Positions 4,180-18,028 of a stretch of 64,000 nucleotides of DNA are shown in pieces (positions within the stretch are counted from its first letter, which is position 1; each line of letters opens with the position of its first letter). Below the pieces are notes generated by a model. The model saw only the letters and a program-made list of their open reading frames with translations, was not told the origin of the DNA and searched no databases. This stretch comes from Flavobacteriales bacterium (GTDB lineage: Bacteria; Bacteroidota; Bacteroidia; Flavobacteriales_D; Sanyastnellaceae). A program made the translations under genes and the position numbers. Location of the stretch: NCBI GenBank assembly GCA_027491075.1, contig JAIXWX010000016.1, positions 86,582-150,581 of the forward strand. Direction: 5' to 3'.

Positions 4180-7100
4180 TTATTTAATAAGTGTCACATT
4201 GCCGCTGAGTTTGAGTTTTTTACCCTCAAGAGTGACGGCGGTTGCAGTGAATACATAGACACCTCCTGGTTGATCGACGCCTTTGTAAGTACCATCCCAT
4301 CCGATTTCTGGATTGATGGTGGCGAATATTTCATTGCCCCAATTATTGTATATTCTAAAGTCAATTTCTTTGAAAGGCCCGCCAAGGACGAAAAGCACGT
4401 CGTTGTTTCCATCATCGTTGGGCGAGAATCCCGTGGGTACCGCGAAAGGTTCGATTTCTTTTTCTCTTGCCTGAATCACAGAAGAAATAGTATCGGTACA
4501 TCCGCTGGAAGCGGTGACAACAAGCGTTACTGAAAATTGTCCAGCATCTGGGAAGAGAATAAAAGGATTTTGGGAAGAAGATGTAGCACCGTTTTCAGTG
4601 GACCATTCCCAAAGTACGGCGTTGATTGACTCATCAGTAAATTGAACTGCGAGCTCTTCATTGGATAGTGAAGAGAATCCCGCAACAGGAGATGGTTGTA
4701 TGAATACCACTAAGGAATCAGATGATGCAGGACACAGACCATTCCCCGTGGAAGTGAGCACAAATGTTATTTGACCGTTCACCACATCATTTAACGTGGG
4801 GGTGTAAACGGTGTTGAGAGTATCATTTGATGGAGTGAAAATGCCGCTTCCGTCCGCAGTCCAAACACCTTGTTCTGAAGGAGAATCGATGATTCCTGAA
4901 AGTGGAATTTCTTTTTGCGAAGCGCAGATATTGAAATCTGAACCCAGCGTAGTGATGGCAGGAGTGGTCAATGAAATAGTAAGTGTATCGGTCGTGTTTG
5001 GGCATATTCCTGTGGCGGAAGAGGAAAGCACCAAATTCACTTCACCATTTAGAATGTCTGCTGCTGACAGAGTATAAACAGGAAAAACCGAATGATCATT
5101 CGAAGGACTGAAGCTTCCAGATCCAAGCGTAGTCCAAAAACCAGATGTGGATGCACCAGAAATAGAACCACCAAGGTTGAACTGAGGACTAGTAGTACAA
5201 ACAGCCACGTCATTTCCCGCAAACACCGCAGACGGTGCTGTTATGCTAACCGAAAGAGTATCTGAGCCTTGTATACAATTGCCGTGATCTGTAGTAGAGT
5301 GAACTAATTCTAGTTCTCCAAGAAGAATGTCTTGAGGAGTTATAGTGTAAGTCGTATTGAGGGCAGCATCATTTTCGAAGTTACCCGTTCCATTGGTGGT
5401 CCATAGTCCTTGAGAAGCTCCGCCCGAAATGCTTGCAGAAATATCAATCACTGTTTGAGTTCCACAAACGATGAGATCATTGGAAACTACGACTTGTGCG
5501 GCATCTGTGAAGGTGATAGAGAGTGTATCTGAAACAACAGGACAATCTCCTTCTGGACTAGCAGTAAAAACCAATTGCACGCTTCCAGAAGTGACGTCTG
5601 ACGAGCTGAATTGATAGATTGCGTTGAGCGTATTGTTATCGGGAACAAAAGAACCACTTCCAAGAGTAGACCATGTACCAGAAGAAGCGCCATTGGAAAC
5701 GGAAGCAAATAGTTCGGCGGATTCTTCTGAAGAACAAATGACTTGGTCTGTGCCAGCATTGATGATTATTCCAGAACTCATGGTCAAGGTAACTATGTCT
5801 GAAATGGGTAAACAGAGGCCGTTTCCAGTAGTAGTGGCAGTAAGTATTACCTCACCGAATATTTGTTCGGTAGGAGAAGGAGTGTAAAACACTGTTGGGC
5901 TATTGTTAGTTGGAGAGAAGGTTCCGTCGCCACCAGACCAACTTATTCCAGAAGATATAGCATAGGATGCAGAGAGTTCGAATACTGGATTTTGTGAACA
6001 AATGAATGCATCGAGTCCAGCATCTATCGTTGGTGCTTGAGTAAATGAAAGAGCTAAAGTATCAGCAGCAACATTGCACGCTTGCGTTGCAGTAGCAACG
6101 AGCATAACACTTCCATTTTGTATGTCTTGAGCACTTGCTGTATAACTGGTATTTGCGAGATTGTTTGGACTAAAGAGCCCAGTCCCCGATGTATTCCAAA
6201 TGATGTCCGAAGATCCACCGCTGATCGCAGCAGAGATCAATGCTGTGGGGTTGTTTTCGCAGATGCTCACATCTGAACCAACATTAACACTGACTGCTTC
6301 ACTGATAGTGAGAACGAGTTGATCAGATATCACTCCGCACAAATCATTGTTGGTAGTAGAGAGGGTGAGGATTACATTGCCCGTTGCGATATCTAGAGCG
6401 GATGGAATGTAATTAGTAATGAGAGCTGATGAGGAAGGCATGAAGGTTCCAGATCCGCTGGAAGTCCATATTCCTGTTGCAGGACTGCCCGTTACTGATC
6501 CGTTCAGCTCTACGGTGTTGATATTAGAGCAAATGCTCACATCATTTCCTGCTTCAACAATTCTAGCTGGAACCACGGTGACCGTCATGTCGTCACTCTC
6601 TTGGTTGCAACTGTTGGTGGTAGTGAAAGTAAGGACAACACTACCGTTTTGAAGATCTTGCTCGCTCGGTGTGTAGATGGCGTTTGGTTCAATATTATTG
6701 GGAGAGAAGAGGCCGGTTCCGGAAGATGTCCATACGCCTTGTGTAGCACCACCAGTGAGTTCCCCAGAAAGAGTTACTTCGTTATCCAATGAACAAATAA
6801 GTTGATCGGGTCCAGCGACAGCACCGCCAGCAGGGAATATGTTTAGTGTGATGACATCAGATATTGGCCCGCAGAGGTTATTGTTCGTTGTTGTTAATGT
6901 GAGTTCAATGGTTTGTGCTGCAATATCTGCCGAACTAGGAGTGTACATTGCATTGAGCGAGGAAGCATTTGGTGAGAAGCTGCCACTACCACTTGTGGTC
7001 CAAACTCCAGTAGGAGGAGTGCCGATAATGGTTCCTTCTAGTTGAACTTGATTTACATCTGTGCAAATAGTGACATCCGTTCCAGCGAGGACTTCCCGCA

Positions 7101-10100
7101 CTCTAAGAATAGTGACCACCATGTCATCCGAGGCATCATTGCAACTATTTATAGCCGAGAAAGAGAGTGTAACACCTCCGTTGATAATGTCTTGTTCGCT
7201 GGGCTCGTAGGTAGCGTTAGGGGCGTTGCTCGTTGGTGCGAAAGTACCCGTACCACTGGAGGTCCAAGCGCCTTGTGTTGCGCCTCCTGAAAGCGCACCA
7301 TTTAATTGAATCAAGTTTTGATTGGAACAAATCGCCTGATCAGGCCCTGCGGATACTCCTCCAATTTGGAAAATATTTAGAGTCATCACATCAGACACAG
7401 GAGCACATGAACCGTTGTTGGTGGTGGTAAGAGTGAAAGAAATATTTTGTGAAGCAATGTCTTGAACTGAGGGAGTGTAGGTAGCGTTGAGCGCGGTGTT
7501 GGAGGGTGAGAAAGAACCTGTTCCGTTGGTAGTCCAAATGCCAGTAGGCGCACCACCAAGAATTTGACCCTCTAGAATAATGGATCCTTGATCCGCACAA
7601 ATGGTTTGATCATTTCCGGCATTTACCACACGAACAGGGGTGATCGCGACGCTTAGCTCATCCTCTGCTGCATTACAGCTATTGGCAGTTAGAGTAAGCG
7701 TTACATCTCCATTAGCAATATCGAAACTGCTGGGTATATATGTCGCATTCAGCACTGTATTTGAGGGTGAGAAAGAACCCGTTCCAGAGGTAGTCCATAC
7801 ACCAGAAGACGCGCCCCCACTCACGGAACCATTTAAGACAATATTGGCATTGTTGCCACAAACCGTTTGATTACTTCCTGCGTTCGCAATTCCAGCAGGA
7901 AGGATGAATATTGTCATTTGATCAAGGACGGCGATGCACGGTGATTGATTGGTAGTGGTAAGAGTAAGTGTTACGCTGCCCACGAGTGAATCAGCGCTGC
8001 TACATTGATAGATCGCATTTAGTGAGGTATTGTTAGGAATGAATATCCCAGAACCCGACGAAGTCCAAACTCCAGTATTTGTGATTCCAGAAACGCTTCC
8101 ACTGAGTTGCACATTGAGGTTGTTTACACAAATGGTTTGATCCAACCCAGCGCTTACAATAGGAGAGGCCTCGATTGAAAGCACAACATCATCCGATTCG
8201 GGTAGGCAGTTTCCATTTCCAGTAGTAGTTAAGACAAGCGTAACCTCACCCGCGGATATTTCATTTGCACTAGGTACATAAGTAGCAGAAAGCGAGTTAG
8301 CCGAGGGTACGAAGTCGCCTTCTCCGCCAGACCAGACACCTCCAGAGGATACAGCAATAGTTCCAGAAATCAATAAGTTTGGATTGTTGGCACAAGAAGT
8401 AGCAGAGAGCCCTGCGTTTGCAACAGGTGCTGGCGTAAAGTTTATTCGTATTATATCGGTCACAGCAATGCAAGAGCCGTTGCCAGTGCTGGTTAAAGTG
8501 AGATCTACAAAACCATTAGCGATTTCATTAGCATTAGCGACGTATGTGGCGGTCAATGAGTTGTTGCCAGGGTTAAAGCTACCTAGTCCGCCAGACCATT
8601 GGCCCGCAGCCGCGAAATTGACGAAACCACTTAAATTAACGGTTGGGTTGTTTCCACATACCGTTTGATCTGTACCGGCATTTACAATGGGAGCTGGCGC
8701 AAAGGAGATGAGTACATCATCTGAAACGGCGATACAGTTTCCGTTTCCAGTGCTCGTAAGCGTGAGTATTACCTGGCCGTTTGCAATTTCTTGCGCTGTT
8801 GGAGTATATACTGCGTTTAGTGAAGTGTTGGACGGAGTAAAAGTTCCAGAGCCACCGCTCCAAATTGCACCCGTAGCATTGAATACCTGGGCATTCAGGG
8901 CCACCGAAGCGTTGTTAGCACATGCAGATATATTAAGCCCCGCGTTGACTAAAGGCGCTGGAGAAATAACGACATTGACTACATCACTTACTGGAATACA
9001 ACTTCCGTTTCCTGTGGTTGTTAATGTGAGAGACACGCTTCCCAGTGCAATTTCTTGAAGTGTTGGTGTATACGCGGCATTTAAGGCGTTTGCGTTGGGA
9101 GAGAATACACCGCTACCTCCGCTCCAAGTTCCCCCGCTCGCAATGGAGACATTTCCAATTAGGTTTACGGTTGCGTTGTTTGCGCAGCTTAATATATCTG
9201 ATCCCGCGTTTGCAGTAGGAGAAGGAGTGAAGCTAATGGTTATTTGATCTGTAACAGCGGTGCAGTTTCCGTTTCCTGTTGTGGTTAAAATAAGAGTAAC
9301 ACTTCCTGCAGCGATTTCAGCAGCCGAAGGTGTGTAAGCGGCATTCATCGCATTTGCGGAAGGGCTGAACAAGCCTAGTCCTCCGCTCCATGTGGCGCCG
9401 GTCGCAATGGTAAATGATCCATTTAGTTGAGCAATGGGATTGTTAGAGCAGAGTGTTTGATCTATTCCAGCATTTACCGTAGGAGGGCTTGTATAAAAAA
9501 TGGTTATATCATCAGAAACCGAGTTACAGTTGCCGTTTCCAGTTGAGGTGAGTGTAAGTGTTATACTGCCGTTAGCAATTTCAGCAGCCGAAGGAGTATA
9601 TGTTGCGTTCAGCGTACTTGGAGAGGGAGAAAATGTACCTGTACCCCCCGTCCATACTCCGCCGGCGGCATTGGTAATGCTGCCGTTTAATACGGCTGCA
9701 GGATTGTTTCCGCAACGTGTAATGTTGGCACCAGCATTTACAATTGGAGCTGGAGTGAATGTGATAAGGATGTTATCAGAAGCGGGATTACAAATTCCAT
9801 TTCCCGTTGAAGTAAATGTCAAAACGATACTACCCGATGCGAGCTCCGTAGGCGAAGGAATATATACAGGATTGAGTATATTGTTACCAGGAACGTAAGT
9901 ACCCGTTCCTCCTGTCCACACGCCACCCGTGGCCACCGTAACGGATCCATTGAGCGAGACGTTTGAATTGTTTCTACAAACAGAAATATCGGCACCCGCA
10001 TTAGCAGTTGGCGCAGGGGTAATGGTAAGTGTCATTTGATCACTGACAGGAGTGCACGCACCAGTGGAAGTAAGTGTAAGCGTCACTGTGCTCACTGCCG

Positions 10101-11679
10101 CATCCGCTGCGGAAGGTGTATAAACTGCGTTAAGAGCGATATTGTTGGGAGTAAAACTACCTGTACCACTAGAGGTCCAAATACCGGTTGTAGATCCTCC
10201 CGCAACCGTACCTTGTAGTTGGGCCGTGGTATTGGCACAAATGGTTTGATTTACGCCAGCATCAGCCACAATGGGTGCGACGAACTCTGAGAAGTATCCA
10301 TATTTACAGCCTGTGGTAGCTCCTCCGTTTACAACACCTAATGCAAACACATCAACAGAGTTGGTGATGCGAAATGTACTGTCTACAGGAACCTGTGTCG
10401 TATTGTATTGAATTCGCGCAGCACGCCATTCGCCACCTGTTCCAGGAACATTCACAAAGCTCGAAGGATTTATCGTGGCGGTACCCGGTCCGGTCACCGT
10501 AAACCCATTTACTGCAGTTGCTCTGCACAATATGGTGAGAAAGAAAGCTTGAGAATTTCCCCGAACGAAATTCAATTGTTGAGAGCCAGCGCAATTGAGA
10601 GGAGGAAGTTGTGCCATTCCCATTTCACAACCAAACCCCGTGATGTGCATCGCGTAGGTGGGTTTTGTGCAGTGAATATAGACGGAGTTGTCGGGACCAG
10701 TGGTGAGATAGTCCATATCGATTCGATAATATTCTCCAGCAAAGAGAGTCGCTACAGGAGTAGATGCTCCGTTAAGAAAAACCTGAGTGTTATTTTGTGT
10801 AGCCATCAACACAACGCTTTCGTCGCCATTGTTATTGAGGCTGCCCTTCACAGCAATGTAGTCTTCACCTACAATATCAACGGGAACAATTTGATCACCT
10901 AGAATATCGTAGCAACCCCCGCTGGGGTTGCGGTTCGAGTCGTCTTTTAAAGATACTGTGATGGGTTTAGATGATAAGACAATAGCTCCAGAAGGGTGTG
11001 TTGCAGGATTGGTATAATTGGTACCAGTCCAACCGCAGCTGTAGGTCTGACCTCTATTGAGAGTAATTGAAAACTGTTGCAGTGCGGGAAATCCGTCTAC
11101 CTGTGTAGGAGAGTAAATGGTGACAACAGTATTGTTGTCAGTAGCGCATATATCAAAGGAAGCGAAGGCGGGATGAGGTGCACTGAAGAGGAAGTTTTGG
11201 AAAGGGTTGTGCTTGTGCAGAGGAATATAGAACTCCGTGCCGAGCCCATTCGGACCTTTCAGCGCCCATATATCCGTATTGTTGTTGTTTGCACATTCAT
11301 AGTAACATGTAATAGTGGAGGTCGATGATATTCGAAGACCTGTATTTAAGACAGCATTAGTTGGTCTTGTTTCTAAGGCAGTCTTTAGAGATGTAAGGTT
11401 GACGCGAGTGGATTTATTTGCTGCTACAGACACAACGATAGGCGCACCTCCGTTGAATGATGGATTGGCAGGTTGTTCTATAGTTACTGTGGCAGGTTGT
11501 CCAGTGGAAGATAGAAAGAGAAACAAAGGTTCTCCTCCTGGCGAGTTATGTAAATCTGTTATGTCTGGGGGAGCGAACCAAAACTCTGTACCACTTTGAG
11601 CAATAGCATCATTAGGTATTACCAAAGATATTGAAACAATTGCAATAAATATTTGGCGGAGTATAGAAGTGTTGTGCAT
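4180..11679 (-). CDS. giant repeat surface protein with IgGFc-binding-like domain and T9SS type B sorting domain
   Basis: A 2,499-residue secreted protein. Order seen: signal peptide (about 1-28, ends DAIAQ); an IgGFc-binding-protein N-terminal-like region (about 30-440); 21 tandem repeats of about 88 residues (about 470-2325); a PKD-like domain (about 2330-2410); and a gliding-motility/CHU_C type B sorting domain (about 2411-2499) beginning TGFSPNDDGNND and ending NVTLIK. Each repeat opens with a NAGxDQTIC-like motif and carries a second cysteine before a conserved SD, so one intrarepeat disulfide is plausible. It is likely a SprB-like adhesin or surface filament, exported by T9SS with the PorP/SprF protein 8 bases downstream. 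The ligand is unknown. Confidence 0.93.
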   Translation of the reverse strand: MHNTSILRQIFIAIVSISLVIPNDAIAQSGTEFWFAPPDITDLHNSPGGEPLFLFLSSTGQPATVTIEQPANPSFNGGAPIVVSVAANKSTRVNLTSLKTALETRPTNAVLNTGLRISSTSTITCYYECANNNNTDIWALKGPNGLGTEFYIPLHKHNPFQNFLFSAPHPAFASFDICATDNNTVVTIYSPTQVDGFPALQQFSITLNRGQTYSCGWTGTNYTNPATHPSGAIVLSSKPITVSLKDDSNRNPSGGCYDILGDQIVPVDIVGEDYIAVKGSLNNNGDESVVLMATQNNTQVFLNGASTPVATLFAGEYYRIDMDYLTTGPDNSVYIHCTKPTYAMHITGFGCEMGMAQLPPLNCAGSQQLNFVRGNSQAFFLTILCRATAVNGFTVTGPGTATINPSSFVNVPGTGGEWRAARIQYNTTQVPVDSTFRITNSVDVFALGVVNGGATTGCKYGYFSEFVAPIVADAGVNQTICANTTAQLQGTVAGGSTTGIWTSSGTGSFTPNNIALNAVYTPSAADAAVSTVTLTLTSTGACTPVSDQMTLTITPAPTANAGADISVCRNNSNVSLNGSVTVATGGVWTGGTGTYVPGNNILNPVYIPSPTELASGSIVLTFTSTGNGICNPASDNILITFTPAPIVNAGANITRCGNNPAAVLNGSITNAAGGVWTGGTGTFSPSPSTLNATYTPSAAEIANGSITLTLTSTGNGNCNSVSDDITIFYTSPPTVNAGIDQTLCSNNPIAQLNGSFTIATGATWSGGLGLFSPSANAMNAAYTPSAAEIAAGSVTLILTTTGNGNCTAVTDQITISFTPSPTANAGSDILSCANNATVNLIGNVSIASGGTWSGGSGVFSPNANALNAAYTPTLQEIALGSVSLTLTTTGNGSCIPVSDVVNVVISPAPLVNAGLNISACANNASVALNAQVFNATGAIWSGGSGTFTPSNTSLNAVYTPTAQEIANGQVILTLTSTGNGNCIAVSDDVLISFAPAPIVNAGTDQTVCGNNPTVNLSGFVNFAAAGQWSGGLGSFNPGNNSLTATYVANANEIANGFVDLTLTSTGNGSCIAVTDIIRINFTPAPVANAGLSATSCANNPNLLISGTIAVSSGGVWSGGEGDFVPSANSLSATYVPSANEISAGEVTLVLTTTGNGNCLPESDDVVLSIEASPIVSAGLDQTICVNNLNVQLSGSVSGITNTGVWTSSGSGIFIPNNTSLNAIYQCSSADSLVGSVTLTLTTTNQSPCIAVLDQMTIFILPAGIANAGSNQTVCGNNANIVLNGSVSGGASSGVWTTSGTGSFSPSNTVLNATYIPSSFDIANGDVTLTLTANSCNAAEDELSVAITPVRVVNAGNDQTICADQGSIILEGQILGGAPTGIWTTNGTGSFSPSNTALNATYTPSVQDIASQNISFTLTTTNNGSCAPVSDVMTLNIFQIGGVSAGPDQAICSNQNLIQLNGALSGGATQGAWTSSGTGTFAPTSNAPNATYEPSEQDIINGGVTLSFSAINSCNDASDDMVVTILRVREVLAGTDVTICTDVNQVQLEGTIIGTPPTGVWTTSGSGSFSPNASSLNAMYTPSSADIAAQTIELTLTTTNNNLCGPISDVITLNIFPAGGAVAGPDQLICSLDNEVTLSGELTGGATQGVWTSSGTGLFSPNNIEPNAIYTPSEQDLQNGSVVLTFTTTNSCNQESDDMTVTVVPARIVEAGNDVSICSNINTVELNGSVTGSPATGIWTSSGSGTFMPSSSALITNYIPSALDIATGNVILTLSTTNNDLCGVISDQLVLTISEAVSVNVGSDVSICENNPTALISAAISGGSSDIIWNTSGTGLFSPNNLANTSYTASAQDIQNGSVMLVATATQACNVAADTLALSFTQAPTIDAGLDAFICSQNPVFELSASYAISSGISWSGGDGTFSPTNNSPTVFYTPSPTEQIFGEVILTATTTGNGLCLPISDIVTLTMSSGIIINAGTDQVICSSEESAELFASVSNGASSGTWSTLGSGSFVPDNNTLNAIYQFSSSDVTSGSVQLVFTASPEGDCPVVSDTLSITFTDAAQVVVSNDLIVCGTQTVIDISASISGGASQGLWTTNGTGNFENDAALNTTYTITPQDILLGELELVHSTTDHGNCIQGSDTLSVSITAPSAVFAGNDVAVCTTSPQFNLGGSISGASTSGFWTTLGSGSFSPSNDHSVFPVYTLSAADILNGEVNLVLSSSATGICPNTTDTLTISLTTPAITTLGSDFNICASQKEIPLSGIIDSPSEQGVWTADGSGIFTPSNDTLNTVYTPTLNDVVNGQITFVLTSTGNGLCPASSDSLVVFIQPSPVAGFSSLSNEELAVQFTDESINAVLWEWSTENGATSSSQNPFILFPDAGQFSVTLVVTASSGCTDTISSVIQAREKEIEPFAVPTGFSPNDDGNNDVLFVLGGPFKEIDFRIYNNWGNEIFATINPEIGWDGTYKGVDQPGGVYVFTATAVTLEGKKLKLSGNVTLIK
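4705..10275 (-). repeat. array of 21 tandem ~88-residue repeats inside the type B giant
   Basis: Twenty-one diverged copies counted from the recurrent AG-D-x-x-x-C motif, average period about 265 bp. Repeats 2-8 form one subtype (TGNGNC near the end). Repeats 9-15 alternate between two subtypes, one ending with TTTNN-C-SD and the other with a shorter S-C-N-x-x-x-D end. Repeats 16-21 are mixed. Confidence 0.9.
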
Positions 11680-11787: not shown

Positions 11788-12804
11788 TCAAACCAAGATT
11801 ACTGAGTAGATTTTTTCTTGATTTACACCAGCATGAATCAGTGCGTTTTTCCAGTCGGCGTGACGCTGTAAAGACTTCTTTTGTGATGTGCCATGAATCC
11901 AGATGAAATTCTTCTTTGACAACACCTCTAAATTTTCTTCACCAAACTTTCCTTCGGAATACAGCGCCATGAATGTTTTGGCATCAATCAACTCGACGTC
12001 TTTATGTGCGTCTGGATTAATGTCGTCAATGATGGTGTATTGCGCAGAACGCCAATTCCAAGGGAGATTTTGATACGAGTTGTTTAGATCTAAAAGACTA
12101 TAAAGTTTGATGGCTGTAGTGTAATAAGTGGTCTTATTTTTTATTGCCTTTTCATTGGCAATGGCTACCCCGAGCGATGTTTTTCCCTTTTCGAACTCAC
12201 CGAAAATGAGCAAGTGCTTTCCCGTAGCTTCCTCATTCATGTAGTTGTTTATGGCTTCTATATCTTGTTTCGAAAACGAAGTGTCTAGTTGACTTAATCT
12301 TCTTTGGAATGGAAAATTGCCGTGTTGTTGATAGACCCGAATTCGATACCAACGAACACTAAAGAATAAGAGCACCAAGGTCAAGACTATCATAGCAGTA
12401 ATAAAAAATAATCTTGAATCCATGACAAGTCCATAAGCCATAGCGCCATAAATGAAGAACAATACATCAACAGAAGTGTCTTCAATTACGTTGCGATAGT
12501 CAGGCCTGAACGCACTTTTTTTGGATTTAGATTGTGAAAACTGCCACAGTATATTGAATAGTTCGAACCCAAACCACACACCTGCTGAGAGGAAGCAACC
12601 CAATAGTAAGGCGTCGTTGATAGTGGGAAAGAAACGCTGAATAGACAGGTGTAGGAACAACGCGGGAATGAACCCCAAGCCAAAGTGCCCGAACTGATTG
12701 GCGAGCCACGCGTAAGTCAAGGAAATGCCGCGATAGCTATCCTTTCCGAGAAGGTCGAGCCTCAATTGAGACAGCATTAGTTTTCTAATTGCGCCGTATG
12801 CCAT
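11788..12804 (-). CDS. membrane-anchored DnaC/IstB-like P-loop ATPase, function unknown
   Basis: A 338-residue protein not assignable to a named family by eye. The N-terminal half has four probable membrane segments (about 31-55, 62-88, 111-128, 132-152) with the motif NQFGHFGLGF at the first. The C-terminal half is a cytoplasmic ATPase: Walker A GEFEKGKTS (202-210), Walker B-like YTIIDDI (256-262) and a later beta strand FIWIHGTS (300-306) in the position of a sensor. The order and spacing (YYTT-AIKLYSLL between Walker A and B) recall the DnaC/IstB helicase-loader ATPases, which are normally soluble. It starts 7 bases after the stop of a histidine kinase, so the two are probably cotranscribed. 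A signal output role is inference only. Confidence 0.75.
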   Translation of the reverse strand: MAYGAIRKLMLSQLRLDLLGKDSYRGISLTYAWLANQFGHFGLGFIPALFLHLSIQRFFPTINDALLLGCFLSAGVWFGFELFNILWQFSQSKSKKSAFRPDYRNVIEDTSVDVLFFIYGAMAYGLVMDSRLFFITAMIVLTLVLLFFSVRWYRIRVYQQHGNFPFQRRLSQLDTSFSKQDIEAINNYMNEEATGKHLLIFGEFEKGKTSLGVAIANEKAIKNKTTYYTTAIKLYSLLDLNNSYQNLPWNWRSAQYTIIDDINPDAHKDVELIDAKTFMALYSEGKFGEENLEVLSKKNFIWIHGTSQKKSLQRHADWKNALIHAGVNQEKIYSVILV

Positions 12805-12811
12805 AGACTTT

Positions 12812-13936
12812 TTATTCTTTAAATAATAAATAGAATGTGCTGCCCTCTCCCACTTTGCTTTCTACCTGGATCTTTCCGCCCATAGCCTCCATTTGGTTTT
12901 TGGTGAGGAAAAGCCCAATTCCACGGGCGTCTTCATTGCCATGAAATGTTTTGTATAGTCCGAATAGCTGAGATTCATAGCGTACTAAATCGATGCCGTA
13001 GCCGTTGTCTTTGATTGATAAAACCATGTATGAATTCTCTCTGTAGGCTGTTATTTCGATGATGGCTTCCTTGTCTTTGTCGCAGTATTTTATCGCATTG
13101 CTCAGTATATTAATTAGAATGCTGTCCAGAAATGCAGGGATGGCACTAATGGTGTAATATTCTGGTATTTCTATTTTGATGGATACATTTTTTTGTATGA
13201 TAAGGGCGTGGAGACTACCTAGCGTTTGTTCTATTTCATGTGCAAGCTTTAGATTTTCTCTTGGCCCAGAAGCGTTATCATGAATGTGGATAATGTCATT
13301 GAGGTTTTGAATTGTTTCTTCGAGTTTATCGGTACTCGTTTTGAGCATTTGAAAAAACAGTTCTTTTTCTTCTTCAGAGTCTGCCCCTTCCATAAACTCT
13401 ACAATGGAGGTGAGGTTAGCTGAGTGGGAGCGTATGTTGTGACTAAGGATTTGAGAGAAAGATTGGAGTTGTTCGTTTTGAAATTTAGTTAGCTCGTAAG
13501 TATGCGTCAATGCGTTTTCTGCGATTTTTCGTCTGGTGATGTCGCGAGAAATAATAATCATAGCATTGATCGATGGGTTGCTGAGTTGATTGTTGCCTTG
13601 CGCCTCTATATAGAAGTAGTTTCCAGAACGGTTGAGTAGACGAAACTCAGCAGTCGGTCCAGGACCAGGTTTGGAAAGCGCCGCAGCAAATTGTTGTTTG
13701 ATGAGATTATGATCATCAGGGTGAGTAACCTCGAAAATGTTCTTATCTTTTAATTCATTTTCTTGATAGTCCATGGTTTGACGCACGGATGAGCTTTGAT
13801 ACAGAATTTTTCCGTTTTGATCAAGCAGAGTAATTATATCAGAAATATTGTGTAAAAGAGAGAGCAGTGGTTTCACAGCGTCTTCCTTTCCTGTGCCCTG
13901 AATGAGGGCTTCGATTAATGTGGAATTAGCAGTCAT
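12812..13936 (-). CDS. PAS domain sensor histidine kinase
   Basis: A 374-residue cytoplasmic kinase with no membrane segment. One PAS domain spans about residues 22-140. The dimerisation/H-box contains ILSHNIRSHSAN, with His166 as the probable phosphorylation site. The HATPase region shows an N-box (ILSNAIKYC, about 277-285), DNGYGID (310-316), GIGLFL (339-344) and a final GSTFYLLF strand. All catalytic boxes are present. No response regulator or receiver domain is adjacent; the only linked partner is the downstream membrane ATPase, 7 bases away. A TATCTTCG -7-like element lies 24 bases upstream of the ATG, in the region shared with the divergent glycan operon. Confidence 0.93.
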   Translation of the reverse strand: MTANSTLIEALIQGTGKEDAVKPLLSLLHNISDIITLLDQNGKILYQSSSVRQTMDYQENELKDKNIFEVTHPDDHNLIKQQFAAALSKPGPGPTAEFRLLNRSGNYFYIEAQGNNQLSNPSINAMIIISRDITRRKIAENALTHTYELTKFQNEQLQSFSQILSHNIRSHSANLTSIVEFMEGADSEEEKELFFQMLKTSTDKLEETIQNLNDIIHIHDNASGPRENLKLAHEIEQTLGSLHALIIQKNVSIKIEIPEYYTISAIPAFLDSILINILSNAIKYCDKDKEAIIEITAYRENSYMVLSIKDNGYGIDLVRYESQLFGLYKTFHGNEDARGIGLFLTKNQMEAMGGKIQVESKVGEGSTFYLLFKE

Positions 13937-13960: not shown

Positions 13961-13968
13961 CGAAGATA
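13961..13968 (-). promoter_or_regulatory. -7-like element TATCTTCG for the kinase/ATPase operon
   Basis: One mismatch from TAnnTTTG, 24 bases before the kinase ATG. The same TAnnTTCG variant recurs before the porin and phosphoheptose isomerase genes. Confidence 0.4.
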
Positions 13969-14030: not shown

Positions 14031-15149
14031 ATGGACCAAAATCACAAGCAGTCTTTATTATGGTTAGACCTTTTAAGAGGATTAGCGGCTTTGGTCGTCA
14101 TGGCGGGACATTTGCGATCTGTCATGTTTGTGGATTTTGAATCTCTCCTTTCACCAGGTCTGCCAGAGAAGGCTTTCTATTTTGTTACTGGATTTGGCCA
14201 TCAAGCGGTGATTATCTTCTTTGTGCTTTCTGGGTTCTTTATCATTAGAAGTGTTCATCAATCTTTGATGCAGGAAAAATGGACTTGGAGGGTGTATTTT
14301 ATAAATCGACTGACCCGCCTTTGGACGGTGTTGATACCAGGTTTGGTTCTTGGTTTTTTCTGGGATAAAATTGGCCTTGCTCTGGATCCTACTTATGAAG
14401 TTTATACGGGCATTGTAGATCACTTGGTCTATTTTGATCCTAATGGAAAACTCAATCTTTTTACCCTTCTAGGCAACCTTGTTTTTGTTCAAACGATTTT
14501 CGTGGAAACTTTTGGTACCAACGGTGCATTATGGAGCTTAAGCAATGAGTTTTGGTACTATATTGCTTTTCCGCTCATTTATGTGGGTTTTCGAACTCGA
14601 AAAGCGCTTTGGGGGGTTGTATTGGGAATTTCAATTATTGTCTGTTTTGATTATTTCGCTTTGGATAACGCGACCCATCCTGCACTTTACTTCGGTGTAT
14701 GGTTATTGGGTGGTATAGCCTTTTGGTTGAGCAGCCGCTTGTCAGCGGTTCAACATCGCGGCCTTTATGCCTTGTTGGTGGCTTTGCTTTTGTTATTGGT
14801 GCTTGCGGGAATTAGAGGAAAGTCGTTGCCCGTGTTGTTTAATGATTACTCGCTTGGATTGGTGACAATGTTACTTGTTGCACTTCTTTCAAGTCTTGAA
14901 ATGCGTTTGTCTTTGGTCAAGATCACAGCTTCTTTTTTGTCTTCTATTTCGTATACCTTGTATGTGGTGCATTTGCCTCTTGCCGTATTTTGCTCTGCTT
15001 TCTTTTTTGAACAAAGAGCAACATTCACCAACGGTAGTGTAGGAATTTATATGCTTGTGTTTGCTATTATTCTCTTTTATGCATGGGTTGTATATTTCCT
15101 TTTTGAAAGAAACACTGACCGTATAAAGCGGTTACTTTTGCGTCATTAA
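14031..15149 (+). CDS. acyltransferase 3 (OafA/NodX-like) membrane protein
   Basis: A 372-residue integral membrane O-acyltransferase. The N-terminus carries the family signature LDLLRGLAALVVMAGHLRS, with the conserved histidine after the first membrane helix, followed by FFVLSGFFI and about ten hydrophobic segments. Members transfer acetyl or other acyl groups to sugars of LPS, exopolysaccharide or glycolipids on the periplasmic side. It is the first gene of a forward cluster, 23 bases before a glycosyltransferase, so its substrate is probably the glycan built by that cluster. The acyl group and acceptor cannot be told from sequence. Confidence 0.92.
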   Translation: MDQNHKQSLLWLDLLRGLAALVVMAGHLRSVMFVDFESLLSPGLPEKAFYFVTGFGHQAVIIFFVLSGFFIIRSVHQSLMQEKWTWRVYFINRLTRLWTVLIPGLVLGFFWDKIGLALDPTYEVYTGIVDHLVYFDPNGKLNLFTLLGNLVFVQTIFVETFGTNGALWSLSNEFWYYIAFPLIYVGFRTRKALWGVVLGISIIVCFDYFALDNATHPALYFGVWLLGGIAFWLSSRLSAVQHRGLYALLVALLLLLVLAGIRGKSLPVLFNDYSLGLVTMLLVALLSSLEMRLSLVKITASFLSSISYTLYVVHLPLAVFCSAFFFEQRATFTNGSVGIYMLVFAIILFYAWVVYFLFERNTDRIKRLLLRH

Positions 15150-15172
15150 AACCTTAACACCTCTGTCTGCGA

Positions 15173-15979
15173 GTGAAAGTGCGATTGTCTGTTGTTACCG
15201 TAAACCTCAATAATGCTGATGGCTTGAGAAAAACCATGGACAGTGTTTTGTCTCAAACGATTTTCTCGGAGATCGAATACATAGTTATAGATGGTGCCTC
15301 AACCGATGGCAGCGTGGAAGAGATTCGAGAGCGCTCAAAAGACCTGAACTTTTGGTGCAGTGAGAAGGACAGTGGCGTATATAACGCAATGAATAAGGGC
15401 ATTACTAAGTGCACAGGGGATTATATTCTTTTTTTGAATAGCGGAGATCATTTTCTTGAAGAAAATACTGTGGAGAAGGCTCTGGAAGGGGCAAATGAAG
15501 ACATAATTTATGGCTTTATTGAATCTCCAAGAGGTGTCCAAACCTCTCCTGAAAGGCTTACCACATCTGCCCTTTTGAAAATATCATTGCATCATCAGGC
15601 TACTTTTATCAAAAGAGAACTCTTTGAAAGGTTCGGAACCTATGCAGAAGACAATAGATTTGAATCAGACTGGGAGTTTTTCTTGAAGTGTATTTTGGTA
15701 GAAAAAGTAAATGTCAGACAGTACCCTCACCCCGTTTCTTTCTTTGAAATGGGGGGCTTGAGCAGCAATGAACGTTTGGAAGAGGCGAAAATGCTTGAAA
15801 AAATAAAGGTTGTTCAGCGCGTTCTTCCAGATATTGCAGAGCTTTATCAAGATTATTTGTCAGCACGAAGATCGCTCAAGGAGCTGCAAAGAAGGAACTT
15901 AGGTTTTTTATTCAGAATGGCTTGGAGGATTGAAAACTCGATGCCGGTGAATATTATAAAGAAATGGAAGAAAAAGTGA
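15173..15979 (+). CDS. glycosyltransferase family 2 protein
   Basis: A 268-residue GT-A fold enzyme. It starts with GTG at 15173, which places the first strand LSVVTVNLNN directly at the N-terminus as in homologues. Nucleotide-sugar motifs visible are VIDGASTDGS and, at the DXD position, FLNSGD; an HHQATFIKRELFE segment and ESDWEFF (about residues 140-175) form the acceptor half, as in WcaE-like transferases. It should add one sugar to a surface glycan in the cytoplasm. The last 16 bases overlap the start of the methyltransferase gene, indicating translational coupling. Confidence 0.92.
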   Translation: MKVRLSVVTVNLNNADGLRKTMDSVLSQTIFSEIEYIVIDGASTDGSVEEIRERSKDLNFWCSEKDSGVYNAMNKGITKCTGDYILFLNSGDHFLEENTVEKALEGANEDIIYGFIESPRGVQTSPERLTTSALLKISLHHQATFIKRELFERFGTYAEDNRFESDWEFFLKCILVEKVNVRQYPHPVSFFEMGGLSSNERLEEAKMLEKIKVVQRVLPDIAELYQDYLSARRSLKELQRRNLGFLFRMAWRIENSMPVNIIKKWKKK

Positions 15980-16914
15980 CCAACTCATTGGATTCAATAT
16001 ATGCGTATGCCTATTGGAGGCATTGTATTTCTCTAGGTGATGGAAATTTTACCCCAGGAGTTCGCTTTGAGAACAACTGGGAAAAGCTTCATTTCCCTTC
16101 CTCTTTGAAGGGCATGAGTTTTTTAGACGTGGGCGCCAATGATGGCATGTATTGCTTTTTAGCAGAAAGTCGTGGGGCGAGCAGAGTGGTTGCCGTTGAT
16201 ATTTATCACAACGAGAGGCATCAGTGGGAGATGACCAACGGCTGGCCTGTATACGGCATTCAGGCAGTGAAAGATTATAGAAAGTCCAAAGTGGAGATTG
16301 AATCTAAATCCATCTTGGACCTGAATTATACCGAACGTTCATTCGACTATGTTTTTTGTGGGAATGTGATAATGTGGGTGAATGATCCGTATTCCGCTCA
16401 TTTCAAGTTAGCAGCTATTGCGGGGAAAACACTGCACATCAGAGAAGACATGTTTGTGAATGAAGGCCCTGCACAACTTCGTTTCTCGAAGCTGTGGAAA
16501 CCCGGCGGTGAGAAGCCCATGTTTGCGGCGAATAAGACTTATTACCGTGAGGTGTTAGGAGCCGCGGGATTTAAGGACATCGAATTTTACGAAATAGATG
16601 AGCAGCAAGAATGGAGGGAGTTTATTCGGAAGTGTCCCCGAATTATAGCGCCAGCCGGTACAAGTACCTTTGTACTTCCACAGAACTCAGAACCCTCAGG
16701 AGTTTTGCGTGAATCTCGCAATGGTCGTATTTCCGCACAAGTTGGTGATAAAGCATATGTGGTAGGAATAGGTTGGCTGAGAATAGGAGATTTAAAAATT
16801 ATCACAGAAGATAGCGCGGATCCAAGTGTGTTTCAGCGCTGGAAGATGCGTCTTGAAAATCGGAGAAACAGAGAAAACAGACAATCAAATTTTTCAATAA
16901 TAGCTCATAGATAA
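15964..16914 (+). CDS. class I SAM-dependent methyltransferase
   Basis: A 316-residue methyltransferase. Motif I is FLDVGANDGMYCF (about residues 55-67), followed by the acidic end of strand beta2 (VVAVDIY) and a motif-IV-like FDYVFCGNVIMWV. The first half resembles the CmoB/DUF1698 type; the C-terminal 100 residues are not recognised. Its location between a glycosyltransferase (16-base overlap) and a DegT aminotransferase suggests sugar or glycan methylation rather than tRNA modification, but this is context inference. Confidence 0.82.
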   Translation: MEEKVTNSLDSIYAYAYWRHCISLGDGNFTPGVRFENNWEKLHFPSSLKGMSFLDVGANDGMYCFLAESRGASRVVAVDIYHNERHQWEMTNGWPVYGIQAVKDYRKSKVEIESKSILDLNYTERSFDYVFCGNVIMWVNDPYSAHFKLAAIAGKTLHIREDMFVNEGPAQLRFSKLWKPGGEKPMFAANKTYYREVLGAAGFKDIEFYEIDEQQEWREFIRKCPRIIAPAGTSTFVLPQNSEPSGVLRESRNGRISAQVGDKAYVVGIGWLRIGDLKIITEDSADPSVFQRWKMRLENRRNRENRQSNFSIIAHR

Positions 16915-16924
16915 TCGAATAAAG

Positions 16925-18028
16925 ATGAAGATTCCTTTTGTTGATTTGCATGCACAGTATCATTCGTTAAAGACAGAAATGGACGCGGCGATATTCAAGG
17001 TAATTGAAGAAGGAGCCTTTATTTCTGGTGGATATGCGCATCGTTTTGAGGAGGAGTTTAAGGCTTATTTGGGCCTTGCACATTGTGTTGCGTGTGCCAA
17101 TGGAACAGATAGCTTAGAGATACTGTTGAAAGCAATGGGAGTGGGCATTGGCGATGAGGTTATCGTTCCGGCAATGAGCTGGATTAGTACTTCAGAGGCC
17201 GTGTCTGCCGTGGGAGCGAAGCCTCTGTTTGTCGATGTAGACGATCAATTACTGGTAGATATTGAAAAAATTGAGTCTGCGATTACTGCACATACAAAGG
17301 TTATTATTCCTGTGCATCTCTATGGAAATCCTGTGAATATGCCTCGCGTGATGGAGATAGCAAATAGACATGGACTTCGCGTGATAGAAGATTGCGCTCA
17401 ATCTCATGGTGCACGAGTAGACGGCAAACTTGCCGGTACCTTTGGAGACGCAGCAAGCTTTAGTTTTTACCCGGGAAAGAATTTAGGCGCATATGGCGAT
17501 GCTGGTGCCATGGCCACGAATGATGCAGCTTTAGCTGACGTTGCTAGAATGATTGCCAACCATGGTCAGAAGGGCAAGCACAATCATTTAATAGAAGGCC
17601 GCAACTCTAGAATGGACGGAATTCAAGCAGCGGTGTTATCTGTAAAAATTCCACATTTAGATGCATGGACCGATGCGAGAATTAAGAACGCTGCCATATA
17701 TGATCGCTATCTTGGACCAGAGATTTCCAAACCGAATATTCATTCGGGGAAAAAGCATGTGTTTCATTTATATGTTATTCGGAGTAAAAAACGAGATGCA
17801 TTGAGCGCATTTTTAAAAGAGCATGGCGTGGAGAATGCGATACACTATCCGGTTCCGCTTCCGCTCATGCCTTGTTACACTTCACATCCCGAACAAGCGA
17901 AAAGTGAATTTCCGGTGGCGGCTGACGCAGCAGGAGAAATATTGTCTTTACCGATGTACGCCGAGCTGACGGAAGAACAGATATCTTATGTTTCTTCGTT
18001 GGTGAGAAAGTTTGAACTTGGAATTTAG
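16925..18028 (+). CDS. DegT/DnrJ/EryC1/StrS family sugar aminotransferase
   Basis: A 367-residue PLP enzyme that aminates a nucleotide-linked keto-sugar. The hallmark N-terminus (IPFVDLHAQYHSL), the CANGTDSLEI phosphate-binding loop, EDCAQSHGA, and the PLP lysine Lys185 in FYPGKNLGAYGD are all present, as are the closing segments for the dimer interface. It is the last gene of the four-gene cluster, 10 bases after the methyltransferase. It implies that an amino sugar is part of the glycan, though the sugar nucleotide synthesis genes are not in this window. Confidence 0.94.
   Translation: MKIPFVDLHAQYHSLKTEMDAAIFKVIEEGAFISGGYAHRFEEEFKAYLGLAHCVACANGTDSLEILLKAMGVGIGDEVIVPAMSWISTSEAVSAVGAKPLFVDVDDQLLVDIEKIESAITAHTKVIIPVHLYGNPVNMPRVMEIANRHGLRVIEDCAQSHGARVDGKLAGTFGDAASFSFYPGKNLGAYGDAGAMATNDAALADVARMIANHGQKGKHNHLIEGRNSRMDGIQAAVLSVKIPHLDAWTDARIKNAAIYDRYLGPEISKPNIHSGKKHVFHLYVIRSKKRDALSAFLKEHGVENAIHYPVPLPLMPCYTSHPEQAKSEFPVAADAAGEILSLPMYAELTEEQISYVSSLVRKFELGI

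Follow-up and report, generated by a model that had tools for sequence, protein, structure and literature searches.

What does a gene for a membrane-anchored ATPase do directly beside a histidine kinase gene? The locus that raises this question lies in a 64,000-nucleotide stretch from a Flavobacteriales bacterium (GCA_027491075.1, contig JAIXWX010000016.1, positions 86,582 to 150,581, forward strand), the whole of which we call the window. The first-pass annotation had described a kinase gene and an ATPase gene on one strand, 7 bases apart, and both open reading frames are present as described:

11788..12804, minus strand: ATPase gene (338 aa; Lipocone/DUF2238-like membrane domain and IstB/DnaC-type P-loop ATPase)
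12805..12811, no strand: intergenic gap of 7 bp (12 bp in the congener locus L002/L010)
12812..13936, minus strand: PAS histidine kinase gene (374 aa)
12818..13135, minus strand: HATPase_c domain of the kinase, residues 268-373 (Pfam)
13508..13861, minus strand: PAS domain of the kinase, residues 26-143 (TIGR00229)

The kinase is clear from its PAS (Pfam E 1e-12) and HATPase_c (Pfam E 4e-16) domains. The common -7-like element claimed for the pair held up in part: a near-consensus TATCTTCG stands at 13961-13968 with one mismatch, but the exact TAnnTTTG is absent on the minus strand upstream of the kinase gene and of the ATPase gene. As the annotation had noted, no response regulator is encoded within the window. 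The genome has 35 receiver domains, and the nearest on the contig is about 17 kb from the pair. On one side the pair is flanked by the gene of a 2499-aa secreted protein (4180-11679, minus strand) with an IgGFc_binding domain, repeats of about 75 residues, a PKD domain and a CHU_C type IX secretion signal. On the other, an Acyltransferase_3 gene is followed by glycosyltransferase-, methyltransferase- and DegT aminotransferase-like genes (14031-18028, plus strand; named by sequence), suggesting that a surface-polysaccharide cluster begins here. PADLOC returned no meaningful defence match on the window.

The two halves of the ATPase protein

We modelled the ATPase protein with AlphaFold2 from an alignment of 74 sequences (mean pLDDT 92.7). 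The predicted structure agrees with the earlier description of four membrane helices (29-58, 65-94, 103-128 and 132-161) fused to a P-loop domain of alpha/beta type, with the Walker motifs where they had been recognized. All parts are on the minus strand:

12727..12756, minus strand: N-terminal, apparently cytosolic motif DLLGKDSYRG, residues 17-26; D17, G20, K21, D22, R25 and G26 invariant in 74/74
12421..12720, minus strand: membrane helices 1-3, which align with DUF2238
12322..12411, minus strand: fourth membrane helix, leading into the cytosolic ATPase domain
11791..12279, minus strand: P-loop domain, residues 176-338; alpha/beta core of five strands, the last not followed by a lid (AlphaFold2, Foldseek)
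12175..12201, minus strand: Walker A GEFEKGKTS, residues 202-210; Lys208 in 73/74 relatives
12022..12036, minus strand: Walker B TIIDD, residues 257-261; both Asp (D260, D261) in 74/74 relatives

The proposed likeness of the P-loop domain to DnaC and IstB was borne out by profile search and predicted fold alike. The NCBIfam IstB model (IS21_help_AAA) matched the window ATPase with E 4.5e-5 and 72 of the 74 relatives (best 1.8e-13). In a profile search against the PDB, DnaI (1e-6), DnaC (3e-6), IstB (2e-5) and DnaA ranked first, while the six best Foldseek matches of the model were all IstB, DnaI or DnaC (IstB E 1e-6; DnaI and DnaC 1e-4). Judged by these profile and model comparisons, the likeness exceeds chance. 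It is a likeness at a distance, the IS21_help_AAA score of the window protein being 23.3 bits, far under the equivalog cutoff of 200.

The first-pass annotation had also entertained a membrane-located nucleoprotein remodelling module, that is, a tethered DnaC/IstB-like loader. Although IstB, DnaI and DnaC are the nearest solved folds, we consider this very unlikely. In the model the chain terminates right after the fifth strand, so that a lid is absent. No position after Walker B holds one conserved Arg in most members; the sole basic column that we noted, a mixed K/R at 296, precedes the sensor-1 strand, and the family thus lacks the arginine finger expected after that strand in IstB/DnaC-type AAA+ proteins. 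Transposase, replicative helicase and other replication genes were absent among the neighbours of five representative loci. Given the missing lid and Arg, the likeness of the ATPase to IstB/DnaC is one of fold, and the suggestion of nucleoprotein remodelling found no support.

The membrane half, whose affinity the earlier annotation had overlooked, resembles DUF2238 (PF09997). Pfam itself gave weak matches in 23 of the 74 members (best E 0.0014, below the gathering cutoff) and none for the window protein. Comparison of the membrane half by hhalign with DUF2238 proteins of other Bacteroidota, however, gave a probability of 94-95% (P about 1e-7 to 2e-8), against 0.3% for the ATPase half as a control, and 7/7 DUF2238 proteins outscored 86/86 membrane-protein controls. 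N36, Q37 and H40 in the first helix, E81 and N84 in the second, and D109, D113 and G120 in the third are invariant in 74/74 family proteins, the polar ones lying within the helices. Burroughs, Nicastro and Aravind place DUF2238 in the Wok family of the Lipocone superfamily, which they characterize by a His in H2, a Glu in H3 and, in H4, an Asp, a further polar position and a Gly close to the helix end (PMC12419801). H40, E81, D109, D113 and G120 of the ATPase protein match these positions. From sequence comparison, then, the membrane half is related to the VanZ/DUF2238 (Lipocone) kind, and lipid head-group chemistry is a prediction for the superfamily (PMC12419801).

We then examined the charges of the loops. 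The N terminus has a mean K+R count of 5.7 and the TM2-TM3 loop one of 3.8, against values below 1 for the other two loops. By the positive-inside pattern, both termini and the polar site appear to be on the cytosolic side, which would put the site beneath the ATPase.

Alternatively, the main role of the protein could be that of a Lipocone-type enzyme acting on lipid head groups, its ATPase a regulatory or energising appendage, with the LuxR-type regulator described below merely tuning it and the kinase in the window an unrelated neighbour. Every active-site position of the superfamily is invariant, the Walker residues are nearly so, and Wok proteins are predicted to carry out cardiolipin-like head-group exchanges (PMC12419801). 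The site here is, however, apparently cytosolic, whereas that paper predicts an outer-leaflet site for integral forms, and at the inspected loci no lipid-synthesis gene was a constant neighbour of the ATPase. We regard this alternative as possible but somewhat unlikely. That the membrane site and the Walker motifs are both nearly invariant speaks for two functional halves in most members. The exception is the relative at L007:1474-2634 (minus strand), in which Walker A is lost (GDEKHENNEL) and Walker B changed, although a LuxR partner and a strict upstream dyad (see below) are retained.

The usual partner and the place of the kinase

A profile search of genome contigs found 124 relatives of the ATPase, of which 80 were kept; together with other searches these gave 84 distinct loci with a readable next gene. 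Counted across them, the kinase and the ATPase are neighbours in 2/84 loci, both from one genus (the window and its congener L002, the same as L010). The usual partner, missed before, is a convergent, tail-to-tail PAS-LuxR gene found in 71/84 loci (70 by script and L031 by hand), from Flavobacteriaceae to Spirosomataceae. Its product of about 243 aa matches PAS_3 weakly and GerE clearly (model pLDDT 89.8). The two genes are spaced from -45 to +27 bp, with one case at +96, and stop-codon overlaps are frequent; since the pair is convergent, its genes do not share a transcript. The outer neighbours vary; identified by sequence, they are asnS and rpoN in Polaribacter, an acyl-CoA dehydrogenase gene and apt in Pedobacter, and others elsewhere. 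At L028:1801-3466 (minus strand) two PAS-LuxR genes stand in tandem beside the ATPase gene, with the dyad ahead of the outer copy. More distant PAS-HTH relatives (L124-L127) adjoin an aminoacyl-tRNA synthetase-like gene in one or two copies, and no ATPase gene was seen near them.

Six more genomes with the ATPase carry the PAS-LuxR gene unlinked. It was not found in the genomes of the window, L010, L008, L009, L055, L013 and G546, several of which are incomplete; in the window's genome, candidate matches elsewhere were rejected, as they were response regulators that matched in their GerE part alone. Among 399 genomes sampled from the order, a close LuxR was present in 5/7 genomes with the ATPase and in 1/392 others (Fisher p 1.5e-9, for genomes that are related and not independent). 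One close LuxR ortholog (L122, genome G265) has no detectable ATPase although 567 bp past its stop codon are present, and G546 and the window's clade have the ATPase without LuxR, so neither strictly needs the other.

The ATPase family itself is sparse: a phylum-wide search with the full profile matched 214/345 genomes, just two of them full-length, and the remaining matches listed were rejected as P-loop cross-matches, mostly DnaA-sized frames aligned at residues of about 200-280. A scan of IMG/VR with the family alignment found no viral relatives. Our literature search brought up no paper that describes a Lipocone-ATPase fusion or the PAS-LuxR family of its partner.

In the tree, the window groups with L010, L008 and L009 in a single clade (SH-aLRT 91), all without LuxR, and the kinase pairing has a single origin (support 89), where long branches meet and in which we place moderate trust. 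Mapped onto this tree, the sequence data indicate that the window's clade lost its LuxR partner and that two members acquired the PAS kinase. Because the clade is LuxR-less and the pairing arose once, the kinase is best described as a derived, lineage-specific partner whose link to the ATPase is real but local. We also weighed a general two-gene design that puts the ATPase under direct control of the kinase. The short gaps (7 bp in the window, 12 bp in the congener) persist at 42% ATPase and 58% kinase identity between differing outer neighbours, and the kinase ortholog (58%) was seen solely beside the ATPase of this one congener; a third congener has neither the ATPase nor a close kinase ortholog. 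Two loci of 84, a single origin and an ATPase without a receiver domain speak against such an output system, which we find unlikely. Of the original proposal of a membrane ATPase in a signalling setting, the IstB/DnaC core at the membrane thus stands, and the kinase-ATPase pair as a general unit does not.

Upstream of the LuxR genes we found a dyad, CAACTGYG-N6-CGCAGKTT, present with at most one mismatch in 58/70 cases and in 0/700 shuffles, and usually 28-62 bp ahead of the LuxR start codon. A strict dyad preceded 8/600 control genes, and almost every one of these shares the site of the LuxR gene, that of the ATPase gene or a LuxR paralog. At L004-L007, from the window's order, it lies 73-105 bp before the ATPase gene instead, strict in L005 and L007, and altered in one arm in L004 and L006. 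Neither upstream of the window operon nor elsewhere in the window was a lux-box-like dyad found. In a clade with LuxR unlinked from the ATPase, three LuxR copies have the same dyad palindrome just after the stop codon, not before the start (L129:2235, L131:2231, L132:1476). A search of 0.97 Mb from three relatives gave full scores to no sites other than those of the LuxR genes themselves, so the putative circuit looks narrow.

The pairing might also be inherited linkage without function, with the dyad serving LuxR autoregulation only. This would suit the six genomes in which unlinked LuxR copies persist and keep a dyad. It fits poorly with a pairing that persists across several families while the outer neighbours change, with the strong co-occurrence of ATPase and LuxR, and with the dyad ahead of the ATPase gene in one clade, and we judge it decidedly unlikely.

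A possible lipid-signalling module and its known relatives

What the sequences show directly is the domain composition, the set of invariant residues, the tail-to-tail PAS-LuxR pairing in most lineages and the lux-box-like dyad. Beyond this, the ATPase protein and PAS-LuxR are probably part of a membrane-lipid signalling circuit. The reading that we favour, with somewhat less than even confidence, is that the ATPase serves as the membrane part of a two-gene signalling module of Bacteroidota, so far undescribed, in which the state of a lipid head group would set PAS-LuxR (the kinase in the window) through an ATP switch. On the cytosolic side of the membrane, the Lipocone-like site would bind or process the head group of a lipid or isoprenoid, and this would change the nucleotide state of the IstB/DnaC-type ATPase. 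That state may then hold, release or otherwise set the activity of PAS-LuxR, by capture and release or by allostery, and PAS-LuxR would act on its own promoter or, in one clade, on that of the ATPase gene. In the window, the PAS histidine kinase would replace PAS-LuxR as the signaller coupled to the membrane ATPase. Going further, we put forward tentatively, as a doubtful possibility, a new class of membrane signal transduction, in which a cytosol-facing Lipocone site for sensing or editing lipid head groups would drive an IstB/DnaC-type ATP switch that controls a PAS-containing output protein. In evolution, a PAS histidine kinase would have replaced a PAS-LuxR that binds a lux box as this output.

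The fusion joins a Lipocone-type membrane domain to a helicase-loader-type ATPase, two kinds unconnected in the papers that we found. The fusion is in turn tied to a transcription factor with a defined putative DNA site, which makes the circuit testable through the gene pair, the predicted active-site residues, the residues for ATP binding and the dyad, which could be used as a reporter. The locus may also show a natural swap of output, with a histidine kinase taking over from a one-component regulator.

With the IstB, DnaC and DnaI helper ATPases of the AAA+ class, the protein shares the P-loop core, Walker A and B and its best fold and profile matches. It differs in its fusion to four membrane helices, in the absence of a lid and of a conserved Arg after Walker B, and, relative to IstB, in reaching 23 bits where the equivalog cutoff is 200. 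The kinase resembles PAS two-component histidine kinases in having PAS and HATPase_c, but no response regulator is found within about 17 kb. The LuxR partner shares the GerE DNA-binding domain with LuxR regulators that bind the lux box, ACCTGTAGGATCGTACAGGT (PMC4444344), and its dyad has the same CTG-N10-CAG spacing, as expected for the site of a GerE protein. In contrast to those regulators, it carries PAS instead of an autoinducer domain and has its dyad mostly at its own gene.

With DUF2238/Wok (PF09997; PMC12419801), the membrane half has in common GHF-x-x-GF-P, FE in the next helix and D-T-x-x-D ... GA in the third, and thus an intact His/Glu/Asp pattern. Unlike Wok proteins, the ATPase protein is modelled without a two-TM N-terminal extension; one short helix (2-19) is all that precedes its membrane helices. 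It adds a C-terminal helix and the ATPase, and its site seems to face the cytosol. The main text of PMC12419801 contains none of the words AAA, P-loop, LuxR and PAS. The multi-component Lipocone systems described there (VanZ-1 with HAAS/PadR, Skillet-2 with ZnR/HTH, Skillet-DUF2809 with wHTH) likewise link a Lipocone membrane gene to the gene of a transcription regulator; here, by contrast, a P-loop ATPase is part of the Lipocone-like protein, and the regulator gene encodes a PAS-LuxR and is convergent.
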